Source: a virus. From it: 64,000 bases of DNA. Each line of letters starts with the position of its first letter. Within the stretch, counting starts at the first letter, position 1. The notes below the pieces were generated by a model. The model worked only from the letters and a program-made list of their open reading frames with translations, was not told the DNA's origin and did not search any database. Shown in pieces: positions 2 to 63,794 of this stretch. The position numbers were made by a program, and so were the translations under genes. Location: positions 52,116 to 116,115 of IMG/VR virus record IMGVR_UViG_3300044732_000442; one strand, written 5' to 3'.

Positions 2-823
2 GGTGGCAAAAAAGTAGGAACTCTATTCAAGGGTAAAAAGACTAGTGTCCCATATGCTAATAGCATCAATGAAAGTGCTGAACTTAGTGAAGCACAACTA
101 GAAGAAGATGATGTTATTGTCGTTCCGGGACAAGGTCGCAAATCAAAAACTGGATTTGTTCCACATGGACAAAGTCGTATAGACCATGAAGTTGAGATGG
201 CACGTAGTGATTTATTCAGTGCCGCAAAGAATGCTCAACAAGTCTATTCAATGATTAAAGATGTTAGTGAAGATGAAGGTCTTGATGGTTGGGTACAAGA
301 AAAGATTATTAAAGCTAATGACTATCTAAACACAATACGTGAATACTTAGAAGGTAAACAAATTCAAGGTGTGAATGAAGGACCCGAGTTTGGTTCAAAG
401 TATGCAGAAAAATTAGCACAATATGTTTATAATGTTAGACCTAATCTTAATAGTGAAGATGATGTTTTAAACATAGGATATAAAGTTGCTGTACAAGATT
501 TAGCCAGTCAAACACGTGCTGTATCGTTGTTTAGCAGAGATCAAGATTTCCCTAGTGACTTTGTAAGTGCTTATAGATTCTTACAAAAAAGACGAGGTGT
601 AACAGAAAACAACCAAAGAGGTGATTCACTTGTTACTGACTCATTAAAAATAATGCGTGGTGCAGAAGTAAGTGATGCTGTAAGAGCACTAACGACCGTA
701 CTAGGAAATAGAGAATACAATAGCCGTCGTGGTTTTTACAATTTCTATATTAAACAAATGATTGATATGTATAGACAACAAGGTGTGAATGAAGGTTCTA
801 AGTCACCTAATAAGAAAGCGTAA
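2..823 (+). CDS. Putative head-packaged modular protein, 5' end outside window
   Basis: The frame is open from base 2, so this is the last 273 residues of a longer protein; a start at 197 would cut off coding sequence of the same character. It holds the motif DGWVQEKIIKANDYLNTIRE (about residues 94-113), a module type I associate with internal head proteins of T4-like phages, and a C-terminal helix-rich part ending in a basic tail. Tripeptides resembling prohead-protease sites recur: INE-S, LSE-A, LEE-D near the start, and GVNE-G twice, the second just before the basic tail. The next gene begins 1 nt after the stop. No enzyme domain is recognised. Virion location is inferred from the neighbours and the site pattern. 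Confidence 0.6.
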   Translation, partial: GGKKVGTLFKGKKTSVPYANSINESAELSEAQLEEDDVIVVPGQGRKSKTGFVPHGQSRIDHEVEMARSDLFSAAKNAQQVYSMIKDVSEDEGLDGWVQEKIIKANDYLNTIREYLEGKQIQGVNEGPEFGSKYAEKLAQYVYNVRPNLNSEDDVLNIGYKVAVQDLASQTRAVSLFSRDQDFPSDFVSAYRFLQKRRGVTENNQRGDSLVTDSLKIMRGAEVSDAVRALTTVLGNREYNSRRGFYNFYIKQMIDMYRQQGVNEGSKSPNKKA

Positions 824-824
824 T

Positions 825-3626
825 ATGAGCAATATTCTTAAAGGTATAATAAACGAAACTAGTCCGCATAATTACGATAGTGATTGGGATTATCAGGATG
901 CTTTAGCACGTAGTGGCAAATCACGTTCTAGCTATCGTTCACAAGAAGATGATACGTCTGATGCTGATATTGCATATTCTAAAAAGATGTATCAATTGGG
1001 TCAACAACAGAAGGCTGCTAAAGAGAAAGCTCAACGTGATAATGACCATGATAGATTAGCAACTGGTACAAATGAAGATGATAGTAATCAAACTAGAATG
1101 AGAATGAATGATTATTACGATTTAGCTGAGGCTCTTCAGGAAAAGCTTAGACAAGCAATTAAGATGGGTAATAACGAACTTGTACATAAATTATCCAAAG
1201 AACGTGCTGAATTAGATGCACGTGTTAAAAAATATGGATTAATGCCTGAATCAGAACAATTAGATGAAATCTCTAATGAGAAATTGGCACAATACAAAAC
1301 AGCTGCCGCCGCCGACGCAGGCAAAGCTGATAAAGAGGGAGACTTTAAGCGTGGTGATAAACGTTTCAGTGGTATTGTTAAAGCAACTAAGAAACAATTT
1401 GCAAATGATACAAAGAAATCTGGTATAGGTCAAGGTATTTCAGAAGATAGATTTAACAGTAAACAAGAAGTTATTAACCATTTTGTTAAAAATGGTAAAA
1501 GTGCGGCAGCAGGTGCGGCAGCATGGGAACGTGGTTATAGAGGTTCAAATCCTAACAAACCAATAGAAATAAAAAAGCCACCTCAAAGAAGTTACCATGA
1601 TGATTTAGATGATAAACGTTATTCTAATACGTTTGAAAATTTAGGTGATCAACTAAAATCACAATCTCTAGAAGCATTACAACAAATCAAACAACAAATT
1701 GAACAAAAACGTGCCGACGAATTAGCTCAATGGGAACAAGATTTTAGAAATAATGTTGCTGGCAAAATGAGAAGCCAACCAATACGTTCACCGGAAGCAA
1801 CACCGGTTGCACAACCTGGTGAGAAGCATTCAGTATTAAAAGCTAGATTAGCACAACTCAATAATGCTATACAAAAACAAGAACTATTGGACAAGTTAAT
1901 TGATAAAATTGACCGTAAAGGTTTGTTGACTCCAGCAATGCAGAACGATGCTGATACTAGAATGCATGTTAAGTATGGTGCAAAAGATAACTATCAATCA
2001 TTGAATAAAAAGTTAGACAATTCTATTTCAATGTTACAGGATAGATTGTATATACGTAAAAAATCAGGTTTAAAAGAATCGCCTAAGAGAATTGATTATG
2101 ATAGTGATACATATGATAATACTAGAATGGGTAGAGAGTATGGCAAGGCTAATCTATTTGTAGATCCGGGGTCAAATGAATTTAAAAAAGAAATACATCC
2201 TGGAGATCCTGAAGGTGAACGTGGTAGACCAAGAAATCTAAAAGGTATTTCAAAAAGGTTACCTGCTGATGCGTTTGGTCGTACTAGCGGAGTTGTTCCT
2301 GATAGTGCAAGACCTAAATCAAAAGAAGATCCTTTTAAAGGAGTAGATGAAGCTGATATGAACCGTAGAGGGTTTTTAGGACAAGCAGGCAAGGCTGCAG
2401 GTGCTGGCGCATTGGCTGCCGCAGGCTTAGGTGGTGCTAGCAATGCTCAAGCATTTAAGGGAACACTTCCTGCTCCTCGTATATCTGAAGATGAGGCTGA
2501 AGCTCAAATTAAAGAATTAAGAAGTAAAGCATATAAAGAGTTAGCAAGTATGATGTGGAATGTATGGCCTAAAATACTAGACACAACATTTGGCGCAAAT
2601 ACTCCTCAAGATAAGCCAGCTACACCCGATGAAATTGGTAAAATGTTAGGCTACAGATTAGCTGAATATGCTGATGACTATAGACAAAAAGTTAGAGCAA
2701 TTAAAATAGCAGCCGGAGTAAGAGATCCTCAAAGTTTAAATAAAACAACTGCCGCAATTTATGTTAATGAACAAGAGATGGATGAGGGTTGGAGTCAAAA
2801 GTACAAGAGTAGTATCAACTGTAGTCATCCTAAAGGTTTTAGTCAAAAAGCTCATTGTGCAGGCAAGAAGAAACACAATGAAAGTATTGACAATGTTATG
2901 GAAATGACATGTCCTGATTGTGGTATGTGTGAAACTCACGTAGACCATGCTAAGTTAGATGAAGCTTGTTGGAAAGGTTATCACAAAGAAGGTAACAAAA
3001 AAATGTTTGGCAAAACATATCCTAACTGTGTAAAGAATACTAACGAAGAACAACTAGATGAAAAATGCTGGGACACACATAAACAAGTTGGAATGAAAAA
3101 CAAAGGTGGACGTATGGTCCCTAACTGTGTGCCTAAAGAAAGTGTAGAAGAACAACATTCACATAGTGAAAGTTGTCCGCATTGTGGTGGCGAGATGGTT
3201 AGTGAAGAACTAATGAATGAAAAGAAAGATGCTTGCTACTACAAAGTAAAGAGCCGTTATAAAGTATGGCCAAGTGCTTATGCATCTGGTGCGTTAGTTA
3301 AGTGCCGCAATAAAGGCGCAAGTAACTGGGGTACAGGCGGAAAGAAAAATGAAAGCTCTATACTAGAAGGTATTGAACAAGCAGACGAAAGTTTACATGA
3401 TTGGTTCAATAAAGAAAAATGGGTTCGCATGGATACTAAAGGAAAGATTAAAGGTCCGTGTGCAAGAGAACCAGGCGAAGGTAAACCAAAATGTTTGCCA
3501 CAAAGTAAAGCACATAGTCTAGGTAAAAAGGGTCGTGCTAGTGCCGCTCAACGTAAGCGTAGAGAAGATCCTAATCCAGAACGTAGTGGCAAAGCCATTA
3601 ATGTTGATACAAAAAAGAAAGATTAA
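825..3626 (+). CDS. Large modular Cys-rich basic protein, putative head-packaged polyprotein
   Basis: I start it at ATG 825 (933 aa, MSNILKGIINETS); an upstream in-frame ATG at 789 lies inside the previous gene. The N-terminus fits a capsid-targeting peptide ending in an I-N-E site. Visible modules are: a QLDEISNEKLAQY segment (about 140) shared with the minus-strand protein at 25544-26917; a twin-arginine-like segment with MNRRGFLG, an Ala/Gly-rich stretch and a SNAQA c-region (about 512-548) directly after GVDE; a WSQKYKSS...CSHPKGFSQKAHC module (about 656); CPDCGMC (about 696); two CW...PNCV modules (about 715 and 748); a DACYYKVKSRYKVWPSAYAS module (about 802); and a basic WFNKEKW...PKCLP C-terminal module resembling DUF5872. 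Nearly every module is preceded by [LMV][DN]E. Function is unknown; DNA association is plausible from the charge. Confidence 0.7.
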   Translation: MSNILKGIINETSPHNYDSDWDYQDALARSGKSRSSYRSQEDDTSDADIAYSKKMYQLGQQQKAAKEKAQRDNDHDRLATGTNEDDSNQTRMRMNDYYDLAEALQEKLRQAIKMGNNELVHKLSKERAELDARVKKYGLMPESEQLDEISNEKLAQYKTAAAADAGKADKEGDFKRGDKRFSGIVKATKKQFANDTKKSGIGQGISEDRFNSKQEVINHFVKNGKSAAAGAAAWERGYRGSNPNKPIEIKKPPQRSYHDDLDDKRYSNTFENLGDQLKSQSLEALQQIKQQIEQKRADELAQWEQDFRNNVAGKMRSQPIRSPEATPVAQPGEKHSVLKARLAQLNNAIQKQELLDKLIDKIDRKGLLTPAMQNDADTRMHVKYGAKDNYQSLNKKLDNSISMLQDRLYIRKKSGLKESPKRIDYDSDTYDNTRMGREYGKANLFVDPGSNEFKKEIHPGDPEGERGRPRNLKGISKRLPADAFGRTSGVVPDSARPKSKEDPFKGVDEADMNRRGFLGQAGKAAGAGALAAAGLGGASNAQAFKGTLPAPRISEDEAEAQIKELRSKAYKELASMMWNVWPKILDTTFGANTPQDKPATPDEIGKMLGYRLAEYADDYRQKVRAIKIAAGVRDPQSLNKTTAAIYVNEQEMDEGWSQKYKSSINCSHPKGFSQKAHCAGKKKHNESIDNVMEMTCPDCGMCETHVDHAKLDEACWKGYHKEGNKKMFGKTYPNCVKNTNEEQLDEKCWDTHKQVGMKNKGGRMVPNCVPKESVEEQHSHSESCPHCGGEMVSEELMNEKKDACYYKVKSRYKVWPSAYASGALVKCRNKGASNWGTGGKKNESSILEGIEQADESLHDWFNKEKWVRMDTKGKIKGPCAREPGEGKPKCLPQSKAHSLGKKGRASAAQRKRREDPNPERSGKAINVDTKKKD

Positions 3627-3635
3627 AGAGTAATT

Positions 3636-4076
3636 ATGTTGTCAGACAATCTAAAAGTATTACTAGCAAGCACACAAAGTTTTGCTATCAAAACACAAAA
3701 CTTTCATTGGAACGTAGAGGGAAGTAACTTTCCACAATATCACGAATTCTTTAATACATTGTACGAAGATGTAAGTGCTACGATTGATCCTATTGCTGAA
3801 TATATAAGAATACTAGGTCACTATACTCCTGGCAGTCTAACACGTTATGCTGAACTAAGTATCATACAAGACCAAATAAAGATTCCACGTGCTGAATTAA
3901 TGTTTGTTGAATCATTACAAGATTGTGAAACAATGCTTCAGTTAGTAACAGCAATGTTTGATGAGGCAGCTGGTGAGAATCAACATGGTATTGAAAACTA
4001 TATGGCTGAACTACAAGACTTGTATGGTAAGAAAGCATGGTTCATTCGTTCTATATTAAAAAGAGAACGTGAATGA
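3636..4076 (+). CDS. Dps/ferritin-like protein
   Basis: The protein is 146 aa, normal for Dps. It carries the Dps signature region with NFHWNVEG, a following H..F...Y and a D..AEYIRILG helix (residues about 20-65), which in the family forms the intersubunit ferroxidase centre; the His and Asp/Glu positions are present. Dps proteins form dodecameric cages that oxidise iron and protect DNA. The gene follows the modular protein by 9 nt and overlaps the GH19 gene by 4 nt (ATGA), so it is co-expressed with likely virion genes. It could be a virion component or act on host iron and oxidative stress; the sequence does not decide this. Confidence 0.8.
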   Translation: MLSDNLKVLLASTQSFAIKTQNFHWNVEGSNFPQYHEFFNTLYEDVSATIDPIAEYIRILGHYTPGSLTRYAELSIIQDQIKIPRAELMFVESLQDCETMLQLVTAMFDEAAGENQHGIENYMAELQDLYGKKAWFIRSILKRERE

Positions 4077-4951
4077 GAGCAACAGAGTTTATTACCGAAC
4101 AAGCAAATCCTAAAGTAGATTTGACTCCAAATTATCCTAACTATCAAGTGTTAGTGGGTGAGTTTGTCGGTATGAAAAAAAACAGAGCAAGATTTTTAAT
4201 TGTAGCCTCTGAACTTAAACCAGGTGTGCGAGAGACTGATAAAATTTTTAGAGCTAGAACTACTAATACACCTATCAGTATTGAGATTGGTAGGGTAAAA
4301 AATCGTAATGTAGTAGATGAAGATTTATCACGTAGAGGCTTCTTAGGTGGTTTAGCTGGTATGGCTGCACTAGGTACTAGAGATACAAAACCTACTGTTA
4401 ATAAAGATACACCAACGGCACCACAAAAAGAACCTACTGTAACTACATTGAGTAACAATCCTCAAATTGAGAGTTTATTACATAAAGCCGCTGTAGCTGC
4501 CGGTATAGTTGGTATTGAATTAGCACAGTTTATGGCTCAAACTAAACATGAATCCTGGAATTTTAGTAGACTAAAAGAAAAGGGTGTAGGTCAAGGCTAT
4601 TTTGCTAAAAAGTATGACCGTCAATATGCACCACGTACTGCTAAGATATTGGGTAATAAGCAGATAGGTGATGGAGAAAAATATCATGGTCGTGGATTTA
4701 TTCAATTGACCGGTCGTGATAACTATCGTATGGCTAGTCAAAGTTTAGGTATTGATTTATTAAATGATCCTGATTTAGCAGAACGACCAGATGTTGCAGC
4801 CAAGATTGCTATATGGTATTGGAAGACACGTGTTAAACCCTATATAAATAACTTCAACGATACGAAGGCAGTAACACAAAAGATTAATCCAGCACTACGT
4901 GGATTACAAGATAGACATGCAAAGTTTATTGACTACAAAAACATATTATAA
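4073..4951 (+). CDS. GH19-type muramidase/endolysin domain protein with capsid-targeting-like N-terminus and Tat-like motif
   Basis: This 292-aa protein starts MRATEFITEQ, resembling a T4 capsid-targeting sequence with an I-T-E cleavage site. A short N-terminal domain follows, then VDEDLSRRGFLGGLAGMAAL (about residues 80-100), a twin-arginine-like signal placed directly behind a V-D-E site. The C-terminal 165 residues are a glycoside hydrolase family 19 (chitinase-like lysozyme) domain, with AQTKHESWNF carrying the probable catalytic Glu, then KYHGRGFIQLTGRDNY and a C-terminal IAIWYWKTRV helix. Such domains cleave peptidoglycan. The gene overlaps the Dps gene by ATGA and lacks an adjacent holin. 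The fusion suggests a virion-delivered muramidase rather than a classical lysis enzyme, which is inference. Confidence 0.82.
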   Translation: MRATEFITEQANPKVDLTPNYPNYQVLVGEFVGMKKNRARFLIVASELKPGVRETDKIFRARTTNTPISIEIGRVKNRNVVDEDLSRRGFLGGLAGMAALGTRDTKPTVNKDTPTAPQKEPTVTTLSNNPQIESLLHKAAVAAGIVGIELAQFMAQTKHESWNFSRLKEKGVGQGYFAKKYDRQYAPRTAKILGNKQIGDGEKYHGRGFIQLTGRDNYRMASQSLGIDLLNDPDLAERPDVAAKIAIWYWKTRVKPYINNFNDTKAVTQKINPALRGLQDRHAKFIDYKNIL

Positions 4952-48688: not shown

Positions 48689-50587
48689 ATGTCAAAGCAT
48701 GTTATTGGCGTGGACTTAGGAACAACTAATTCCTGTGTAGCCATTATTGAAAACGGAATCCCCAAAATAATTGAAAATTCAGAAGGTGCTAGAACTACAC
48801 CCTCAATCGTTGCCTATGCTAATGATGAGATTCTAGTAGGTGCTAGTGCTAAACGTCAATCAGTTACAAATCCAAAGAATACAATCTATGCTGCCAAGCG
48901 ATTAATTGGACGTAAGTTTACAGAACAAGCTGTACAAAAAGATATTGACCTTATGCCTTATTCTATTGTCAAAGCTGATAATGGTGATGCATGGGTAGAA
49001 GTAAATGGACAAAAGCTAGCCCCACCTCAGATTAGTGCTGAGGTATTACGTAAAATGAAAAAGACTGCGGAAGACTATTTGGGTACTTCAGTTACTCAGG
49101 CAGTTATCACAGTACCAGCTTACTTCAATGACAGTCAACGTCAAGCTACTAAAGATGCAGGACGCATTGCTGGTCTAGAAGTATTACGTATTATCAACGA
49201 ACCAACAGCGGCTGCTCTAGCTTATGGTGTAGATAAACAAGATAAGAAGGATCGTAAGATTGCGGTATATGACTTGGGTGGTGGTACATTTGACGTATCT
49301 ATCATTGAACTAGCAGACGTTGAAGGTGAAACTCAAATTGAAGTACTATCAACAAATGGTGATACATTCTTGGGCGGTGAAGACTTTGACCAACGTATTA
49401 TGGATTTCTTAGTTGATGAGTTTAAGAAAGACAATGCGGTTGATCTTAAGAAAGATATGTTAGCATTGCAACGCTTGAAAGAAGCGGCTGAGAAAGCTAA
49501 GATTGAATTGTCCAGTTCAGCACAAACAGATGTTAACTTACCATATATTACTGCTGATGCTAATGGTCCTAAACATTTGAACGTTAAGTTAAGTCGTGCT
49601 AAATTAGAATCATTAGTTGATGAATTAATTCAACGTAGTATCAAACCATGTAAACAAGCCATGACAGATGCAGGTGTTTCAACATCTGATATTGATGAGG
49701 TTATACTTGTTGGTGGTATGACACGTATGCCTAAAGTACAGGAAACTGTTGAAGCATTGTTTGGCAAAGCACCACGTAAAGATGTTAATCCAGATGAAGC
49801 AGTGGCAGCAGGTGCCGCACTTCAAGGTAGCGTATTAGCCGGTGAACGTACTGATGTATTGTTATTAGATGTAACACCATTAAGTTTAGGTATTGAAACA
49901 TCCGGTGGTGTATTTACTAAGTTGATTAAGAAGAATACAACTATTCCAACTAAACATAGTCAAGTGTTCAGTACAGCAGATGATAATCAACCGGCAGTAA
50001 CTATTAAAGTTGCACAAGGTGAGCGTGATTTGTTTACATATAACAAGTTATTAGGTGAGTTTAATTTAGAAGGAATTCCGCCAGCAATGCGTGGAGTACC
50101 ACAAATTGAAGTTACATTAGATGTTGATGCTAATGGTATTCTTAATGTAAGTGCCAAAGACAAAGGTACAGGCAAAGAGAATAAGATTACTATTAAATCT
50201 GATTCAGGATTGACTGAACGTGAAATTCAACAGATGGTTAATGATGCTGAAGAAAATGCAGAAGCTGATGCTAAACAAGTTAAATTCATTCAAGCAAAAA
50301 ATACTGGTGAATCAACATTAAACAGTTTCCGTAAAGATTATGAGAAGTACGGTGACAAAGTAACAGCAGAAGAAAAAGAAAAAGTATCAAATGCTATTGA
50401 TGCATTAGAAGTTGCGTTAGCCGGAACTGAAGTTGAAGAAATTGACAACAAAGTTAAAGAACTATATGAAGCTATTGGTCCTATTACTAAACTCAAGTAT
50501 GAAGAGGAACAAAAAGCCAAAGAAACATCTCAATCACAAAAGTCTGATGACAATGTGGTAGATGCAGAGGTTAAGGAAGCACCTTAA
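48689..50587 (+). CDS. dnaK: DnaK (Hsp70) chaperone
   Basis: 632 aa, complete. ATPase domain: [15 protein letters not shown] at the start, [51 protein letters not shown]. Substrate domain with [14 protein letters not shown] and the lid, ending in an acidic [13 protein letters not shown] tail like proteobacterial DnaK. No DnaJ or GrpE lies in the window, so it would use host partners. Folding of capsid or fibre proteins, or protection under stress, is likely. Confidence 0.97.
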
Positions 50588-62424: not shown

Positions 62425-62690
62425 AATACTATACTTTTTACCGTGAAAACAATAACTTCACAGATATACTAACAGACAACAACATTAAGAAAGTGGTTGA
62501 TATGAAAATATCATGGCATAGACATTTAATGATTGGGATGCAAGCAACTACTAATAGCGGCACGTTTAGCTATATTACATTGAAGTATGGTGATGAGATG
62601 ATACCTAGTTTAACAAAAGACTATAGTCCAGTACCCGGGGTTGATTATGTACCTAAGAAAGATATCACTAAGTTTGAAAATAAAGATTAA
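62421..62690 (+). CDS. Small hypothetical protein
   Basis: 89 aa from ATG 62421 (ATGA overlap). Contains MKYYTFYRENNNFTDILTDN, a KISWHRHLMIGM element and a C-terminal polar tail. No family recognised. It ends convergently with the minus-strand carboxypeptidase gene. Confidence 0.55.
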   Translation: MKYYTFYRENNNFTDILTDNNIKKVVDMKISWHRHLMIGMQATTNSGTFSYITLKYGDEMIPSLTKDYSPVPGVDYVPKKDITKFENKD

Positions 62691-63418
62691 TAAAGCATAG
62701 ATAGCATCTTAGCTTCTGGGATACGAGTTTTAGTATTCTTTGAACCCAACAGGACTACGGTCCTGATTCCATTTACAGTATTAATCATCATAACAATACA
62801 TCCACCTGATTTAGTAATCCATCCTGTCTTGCTTACTATAAACGAATTGTTTGGTCCTACTAGTGTATTAGTATTTCTAAACTCTATATTTTTCTTCTTA
62901 TTGATACTCCAACGTACTGCGTCCATATTACTAGCTTCTACTATCAATGGATACTTGCTGGCTGCGAATACAAGTTTAATTAAATCTTGTGCTGTACTAA
63001 CGTTTGTAGCTAACAATCCAGTAGGGTCGGTAAAGGTACTGTTAATCATTTGTAATGACGTTGCTTTAGTGTTCATTGCACTGATACAGTTATCATATCC
63101 TCCCGGATAGTAATCGCATAATAGTTTGGCAGCGGAATTATCTGATTTAACGATTGCCAAATCAATAAGTATTTCTCTAGTAAGTTGTTTGTTGTAGAGT
63201 TTTTTTGGAATGATTTCTGTAAGTGATTGACCACTATCTAGCACAACCATTGCAGTCATTAGTTTAGTGATACTAGCTATGCTACGTATTTCGGACATAT
63301 TAGAAGCTTCAAATATTCTACCATTACTATCAGCGACTATCCAAGCTTGTGCAGTTAATGGTGTAGCGTATGCAGATGAAGCTGTTAGTGCCAGTACTGT
63401 AATTAATTTTTTAATCAT
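62687..63418 (-). CDS. D-alanyl-D-alanine carboxypeptidase (peptidase S11-like)
   Basis: 243 aa with a signal peptide (MIKKLITVLALTASSAYA). Penicillin-binding motifs: SITKLMTAM (S-x-x-K), VKSDNSAAK (S-x-N) and SKTGWITKSGG (K-T-G). PBP5-type enzymes trim the terminal D-Ala of peptidoglycan stem peptides. The C-terminal anchoring domain of PBP5 is absent. It would act in the host periplasm. Its start overlaps the preceding minus-strand gene by ATGA. A phage-borne DD-carboxypeptidase may alter the wall against rival lysins or aid lysis. Confidence 0.9.
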   Translation of the reverse strand: MIKKLITVLALTASSAYATPLTAQAWIVADSNGRIFEASNMSEIRSIASITKLMTAMVVLDSGQSLTEIIPKKLYNKQLTREILIDLAIVKSDNSAAKLLCDYYPGGYDNCISAMNTKATSLQMINSTFTDPTGLLATNVSTAQDLIKLVFAASKYPLIVEASNMDAVRWSINKKKNIEFRNTNTLVGPNNSFIVSKTGWITKSGGCIVMMINTVNGIRTVVLLGSKNTKTRIPEAKMLSMLY

Positions 63419-63732
63419 ATTGATGTTCCTGTCTTATAATTAATTAATTTAATATCAGTACCCATTCCAACGATACAGCTTATATCTTTTGAAGTAGCAA
63501 CGATTGTCCAATTCTTATCAGTGGGGTTCATCCAAACACTGAGAGTTGATTTAGCTATATCTGTTACCTTGCCTGTTAGTAGAGGCAGTTCTTTATATTT
63601 TTCTCTAAGATTTTTAAATAGGTCTGTTGTGTTGTAGCAGGGTAGTTCTGCTTCTATGGTTTCTTTTAGTTCTTGTGAATAGGAGCAGGTTGATATTCCT
63701 AAAGTTAGTAGTATTAGATAAAGTGATTTCAA
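63415..63732 (-). CDS. Periplasmic protein, partner of DD-carboxypeptidase
   Basis: 105 aa with a TTG start behind GGAGAATATA. Signal peptide MKSLYLILLTLGISTCSYSQ. The mature part has CYNTTDLFKNLREKYKELPL, then KSTLSVWMNPTDKNWTIVAT and CIVGMGTDIKL, with two Cys likely forming a disulphide. Small secreted proteins of this plan recur in T4-like phages. Translationally coupled to the carboxypeptidase. Confidence 0.65.
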   Translation of the reverse strand: MKSLYLILLTLGISTCSYSQELKETIEAELPCYNTTDLFKNLREKYKELPLLTGKVTDIAKSTLSVWMNPTDKNWTIVATSKDISCIVGMGTDIKLINYKTGTSI

Positions 63733-63794
63733 TATATTCTCCTATTCGTTATAGTATATCATACAACTAGAGAATATACTAATCAGATTTACCC

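Follow-up and report, generated by a model that had tools for sequence, protein, structure and literature searches.

A predicted PBP7-like peptidase and its secreted partner: a candidate wall-remodelling gene pair in a clade of jumbo phages

Introduction

As a rule, phages cut the cell wall with endolysins or virion lysins. Among the families collected in PHROGs, the phage peptidase family phrog_5304 is already known, and the enzyme analysed here matches it by profile. E. coli PBP7 is bound by the scaffold protein NlpI, which left PBP7 activity unchanged (PMC7049810). In phage T4, Spackle is a periplasmic, disulphide-bearing inhibitor of the gp5 lysozyme (PMC7677548). Adaptor and inhibitor roles thus both have precedents. 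Here we analyse a pair of coupled phage genes, brought to attention by an earlier note on the same DNA, in which an enzyme of the penicillin-binding type is joined to a small protein with a predicted signal peptide.

Results

A coupled gene pair in a jumbo-phage group

The window, a stretch of 64,000 nucleotides, spans bases 52116-116115 of a virus record that is 116,115 bases long (IMG/VR record IMGVR_UViG_3300044732_000442), and the pair consists of two minus-strand open reading frames near the end of the window (Table 1). The DNA polymerase of the record belongs to the T4 superfamily, its closest relatives being those of the jumbo phages Phosso, Atu_ph07 and RaK2 at 43-48% identity, and contigs related to the record reach 349, 352 and 524 kb, sizes that therefore point to a jumbo-phage group. 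The window also carries a phage-encoded HSP70/DnaK (PF00012, E=2.7e-258; 48689-50587, plus strand), with up to 69.5% identity to phage-labelled records and about 52-55% to metagenomic huge phages.

The stop of the partner gene and the start of the enzyme gene have an ATGA in common at 63415-63418. The earlier note had described this coupling to a small secreted disulphide protein, as well as a signal peptide on the enzyme, and the description holds in its particulars: signal peptides can be read by eye in the enzyme (MIKKLITVLALTASSAYA) and in the 105-aa partner (MKSLYLILLTLGISTCSYS), and the mature partner has two cysteines, C32 and C86.

The enzyme is carried by 25 virus records (24 IMG/VR contigs and the window's record), many of them near-identical and making up about 16 distinct groups, and the partner adjoins it in 22 of the 25. 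Thirteen of 16 distinct pairs overlap by ATGA, one overlaps by a single base and two are separated by a 7-base gap; when ten records were searched whole, all 11 copies of the partner adjoined an S11 gene. The exception is one subgroup of three near-identical contigs of 15-38 kb, where the enzyme lies directly behind a DUF4337 protein and no partner was found elsewhere on these contigs, and the partner is therefore not obligatory. Two pairs are present in the 524-kb record, as a result of either duplication or chimeric assembly; on this contig (L161, 4000-7116; also the contig of L009) at least one copy of the pair keeps the window's neighbouring genes. Purifying selection acts on both genes: among 55 pairs, all of which gave a usable dS for the enzyme and 53 for the partner, the median dN/dS is 0.10 and 0.27, respectively.

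In some relatives, small unknown proteins are encoded upstream of the pair, and in one (L011, 5679-7733, plus strand) a 684-aa protein with CHASE2 and adenylate/guanylate cyclase domains ends at the start of the partner gene. A consensus promoter scan, which yielded no more promoters than it did on shuffles, did not list the extended -10-like element ahead of the partner gene (TGATATACT, Table 1). Ahead of this element, a block like GGGTAAATCTGATTAGTAT is conserved in L004, L007, L011, L041, L057 and the window (63762 upward); it is a possible operator or activator site.

Table 1. Features of the gene pair and the GH19 gene, in window coordinates
Feature	Position	Strand	Remarks
PBP7/PbpG-like Peptidase_S11, probable periplasmic DD-endopeptidase	62687..63418	-	243 aa; ATG start; signal peptide by eye; without C-terminal domain
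SITK (SxxK) catalytic motif, residues 49-52	63263..63274	-	S49 and K52 invariant in 16/16 copies compared
SDN (SxN) motif, residues 92-94	63137..63145	-	39 residues past SxxK lysine vs 53 in bacterial PbpG
KTG motif, residues 197-199	62822..62830	-	invariant in 16/16 phage copies
C101-C111 cysteine pair around YPGG loop	63086..63118	-	16/16 phage copies, 0/13 bacterial S11; putative disulphide
Partner, phrog_25396 by profile, predicted secreted, two cysteines, 105 aa	63415..63732	-	TTG start; stop overlaps enzyme start (ATGA)
AGGAGA, likely ribosome-binding site of partner gene	63738..63743	-	by eye
TGATATACT, extended -10-like element	63753..63761	-	by eye; TGnTATA[AC]T here, upstream of the partner, in 10/15 related pairs shown
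GH19 (PF00182) protein, likely canonical endolysin	4073..4951	+	~58 kb from pair

The enzyme falls on the PbpG side of Peptidase_S11

The enzyme scores 123.2 bits against Peptidase_S11 (PF00768; E=1.5e-35, residues 18-216), for which the gathering cut-off is 27.6 bits, and the match is therefore not due to chance; ten related virus records, when searched, all exceeded the cut-off as well. The three motifs of a serine enzyme of this kind, which the earlier note had pointed out, are indeed present (SITK, SDN and KTG), and SxxK, SxN and KTG are invariant in all 16 phage copies.

The same note had taken the enzyme for a PBP5-like DD-carboxypeptidase, and here the evidence leads elsewhere. The best NCBIfam model is PRK11669, a D-Ala-D-Ala endopeptidase, at 156 bits, with DacD reaching 46 and DacA 32, although this score falls short of the PRK11669 equivalog cut-off of 294 bits. 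The best PDB chains are likewise DD-endopeptidases, 6azi (130 bits) and 6muq (125 bits), while the chains named PBP5 (3a3j, 1hd8, 1nzo) score 33 bits or less. In a midpoint-rooted tree of 29 rows, in which some long branches were flagged, the 16 copies from phages fall together with five bacterial PbpG-type proteins at a support of 100/100, apart from eight PBP5/6/DacD-type and Rhodobacterales S11 proteins; the bacterial set is small, its 13 proteins having been drawn from six genomes or records. C207 of the enzyme is common to all five bacterial PbpG-type proteins and to none of the eight PBP5-type proteins. Only 44 residues follow KTG in the window enzyme (44-46 across the 16 phage copies), as compared with 154-163 in four gammaproteobacterial PBP5/6/DacD-type proteins, and a C-terminal domain of the PBP5 type is lacking. 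The lack of a membrane anchor domain had been seen correctly, and it is normal here: PBP7/PbpG is a class of soluble periplasmic DD-endopeptidases, in which the absence of an anchor is expected.

By NCBIfam, PDB and tree, the enzyme is thus classed as PBP7-like, on the PbpG side of S11, and the PBP5/DacA class is ruled out by the NCBIfam and PDB scores, the tree branch and the missing C-terminal domain and anchor. Some S11 enzymes have both activities, and family membership and motifs would also suit a DD-carboxypeptidase of PBP5 type, which would alter sensitivity to endopeptidase lysins by trimming stem pentapeptides; we nevertheless consider this function unlikely, because sequence, PDB and tree all place the enzyme with PBP7 and the PBP5 C-terminal domain is missing.

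Two changes set the phage enzymes apart from bacterial S11 proteins

All 16 phage copies have 39 residues between the lysine of SxxK and SxN, where bacterial proteins have 53 (five of five PbpG-type) or 56-62 (eight of eight others). The shortfall corresponds to a 14-residue stretch between the two motifs that is absent from every phage copy, a loss shared by none of the 13 bacterial S11 proteins. In addition, two cysteines, C101 and C111, flank the YPGG loop in every one of the phage copies (16 of 16) but in none of the 13 bacterial proteins. Loop loss and cysteine pair together probably change access to the active site.

A loss of 14 residues beside the active-site motifs could impair catalysis, and one might picture an enzyme that has ceased to be catalytic and whose role towards beta-lactams or wall proteins is that of a decoy or scaffold. 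Such a fate is very improbable given that all catalytic residues tested are invariant among the 16 phage copies and that the median dN/dS is 0.10.

Enzymes of this type are rare in phages

A search of 50,697 phage records returned 30 matches at E<=1e-3, all below 60% identity, and thus no near relative of the enzyme; the rarity of phage-encoded penicillin-binding proteins, which the earlier note had asserted, is borne out to this extent. The best two of the 30 matches belong to Acinetobacter phage MD-2021a and the other 28 to unannotated faecal or Listeria contigs. We discounted the MD-2021a matches as phage genes, as they are probably host DNA: the one of the two that we viewed lies among gpmI, atoC/atoS and feoB. 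Literature searches yielded no paper describing a phage PBP7 or S11 endopeptidase; PMC10305713 deals with M15 enzymes.

The partner belongs to a widespread, unnamed family

Pfam and NCBIfam gave no family for the partner at a meaningful score. Sequence searches with the window partner gave no match in phages and three matches at E=3 in plasmids, two of which are one Alloyangia protein that was later shown to be a member of the family. Phage relatives were found via a divergent member of the same clade (in L055), which matches the phrog_25396 profile at 9.4e-8, as compared with a weak 2.6e-3 for the window member. When ten jumbo-phage members were compared with five other phage members, profile to profile, the match reached 96.5% (E=9.5e-10). 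By these profile matches the partner family is phrog_25396, which has no name. In 59 of 59 aligned members both cysteines are invariant, as are E48, G54, W75 and G91.

A search of PDB sequences with the partner profile gave nothing under E 0.35. A first model, built from 10 sequences, reached a pLDDT of 60 and had no useful fold match. The AlphaFold2 model built from 59 sequences has a mean pLDDT of 82, with a core above 90, and predicts a mature part of one helix and four strands. For this model Foldseek found no match with E<=0.001 and the best VIA Z was 5.3, a level that the tool calls common, so we claim no fold family.

The partner is small, predicted to be exported and endowed with two cysteines, and the T4 inhibitor of gp5 lysozyme bears a disulphide too (PMC7677548), so that the partner might be an inhibitor that guards the wall in the manner of Spackle, for instance from the tail lysozyme when another phage superinfects, and be tied to the enzyme by shared expression only. 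We regard this as improbable: Spackle is a helical bundle, unlike the predicted one helix and four strands of the partner, and the regularity with which the partner is coupled to the enzyme speaks for a shared function.

In other phages, the partner family often lies close to wall hydrolases

In Rhodobacterales chromosomes, relatives of the partner occupy a fixed site near citE-like, TauE-like, mdh and sucC genes (80 loci of the 291 relatives found; gene names by eye), and 29 of 299 genomes from the phylum of one Rhodobacterales carrier have phrog_25396 relatives, some in tandem. Tandem paralogues were observed in the bacterial genomes L208, L209, L211 and L212. The surroundings in 25 of 30 further bacterial regions (23 whole, 2 partly) look metabolic, and one copy adjoins a terminase-like gene. 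No recognised wall genes were seen by eye near the chromosomal relatives in the loci examined.

Among other phages, which we divided by eye, not from a tree, into 13 groups, a wall hydrolase adjoins the family or lies at most two genes away in seven: R26L/L069, ThpS-P1, Nsp-JY21 with Sc-Yong805-1, L071, L073, L076, and L077-L079, where the hydrolase was seen in L079 only. The enzymes concerned are a PF11860 muramidase, an amidase (in two groups), a GH108 protein with a holin, a phrog_7 endolysin, a Peptidase_M15_3 and a Hydrolase_2. Four groups have replication or unknown genes around the family instead (RDJL1/L072, L070, the Rhodobacter phages, and the Ruegeria phages with L075; 1 of 16 Rhodobacter and 2 of 10 Ruegeria records were viewed), and two count neither way, L074 standing at a contig end and L080 having a weak holin only. 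The count leaves out the Alloyangia plasmid copy and the jumbo clade itself. A rough binomial for seven of 13 gives 2e-5 to 1e-3 at an assumed chance of 0.077 to 0.15 per group, and under these assumed chances the hydrolase neighbourhood is unlikely to be accidental. Since members of the family have hydrolases of other types as neighbours elsewhere, the partner is not confined to the S11 enzyme.

These neighbourhoods would also accord with a late lysis accessory, in which the enzyme provides a second lytic activity at the end of infection, next to that of the GH19 endolysin, and the partner belongs to the lysis cassette. What the window shows makes this alternative look doubtful to us: 58 kb separate the pair from the GH19 gene, and by eye we recognised no holin, endolysin or spanin among its immediate neighbours. 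The element upstream of the partner gene, moreover, resembles an extended -10 and not a T4 late promoter, although this is weak evidence. Since the GH19 protein is the probable endolysin, the pair does not provide the main lysis enzyme. In related records GH19 was found in four of nine, three of them over cut-off, SLT in 0 of nine, PF00959 in one of ten and M15_4 in one of nine, both of the latter inside frames of over 900 aa.

The genes on either side of the GH19 gene encode a ferritin-like protein (PF00210; 3636-4076, plus strand) and a protein that resembles staphylococcal nuclease and has a signal peptide (PF00565; 4960-5397, plus strand). Well behind their N-termini, the GH19 protein and a 945-aa protein (789-3626, plus strand) have an internal RRGFLG that resembles a twin-arginine signal.

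Discussion

Homology to PBP7, intact motifs, two phage-specific changes, coupling and conservation can be read from the sequences directly, and from them we infer endopeptidase activity, its timing, a physical interaction of the two proteins and an effect on the wall. Our preferred reading, which we consider about as likely as not, is that the pair is a periplasmic wall-remodelling module of a T4-superfamily jumbo phage, in which the PBP7-type enzyme cuts DD-cross-links and the partner is a general wall or lysis accessory. The enzyme would descend from bacterial PBP7/PbpG and, once exported to the periplasm, would cut DD-cross-links of the host peptidoglycan during infection. The wall might thereby be loosened so that the infected cell can enlarge, or primed for the separate GH19 endolysin. 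The partner, exported with the enzyme, could act as an adaptor, an activator or a brake that is not tied to one kind of hydrolase.

A broader proposal, which we put forward only tentatively, is that phrog_25396 may be a general phage factor for lysis or wall remodelling, shared with alphaproteobacterial chromosomes and paired with muramidase, GH108, amidase, M15 and SleB-type enzymes, which in the jumbo clade became coupled to a trimmed, cysteine-stapled PBP7 that controls cross-linking of the host wall through a long infection. If the preferred reading is true, a conserved, secreted endopeptidase of the penicillin-binding type would mean that a jumbo-phage clade manages the wall cross-linking of a living infected cell, and phrog_25396, unnamed and widespread, would gain a functional lead that is open to simple assays.

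How does the pair compare with known systems? With PBP7/PbpG (PRK11669; 6azi, 6muq) the window enzyme shares the S11 family, the SxxK, SxN and KTG motifs, YPGG, C207, a signal peptide and the lack of a C-terminal anchor domain; it differs in being phage-encoded, 14 residues shorter between SxxK and SxN, supplied with the added C101 and C111, coupled to a partner and under the equivalog cut-off. It also matches phrog_5304, a family annotated as phage 'peptidase' (E=3.3e-19), but only in part, the profile being longer (386 positions), and it is closer to PbpG. T4 Spackle resembles the partner as a small periplasmic phage protein with a disulphide and a link to peptidoglycan hydrolysis, but is an alpha-helical bundle, as opposed to the one helix and four strands of the partner model. 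With other members of phrog_25396, from Roseobacter, Rhodobacter and other phages and from alphaproteobacterial chromosomes, the partner has in common the invariant C, E, G, W, C and G; what distinguishes the window member is that it is paired with an S11 enzyme, not with a muramidase, amidase, M15 or SleB-type hydrolase.
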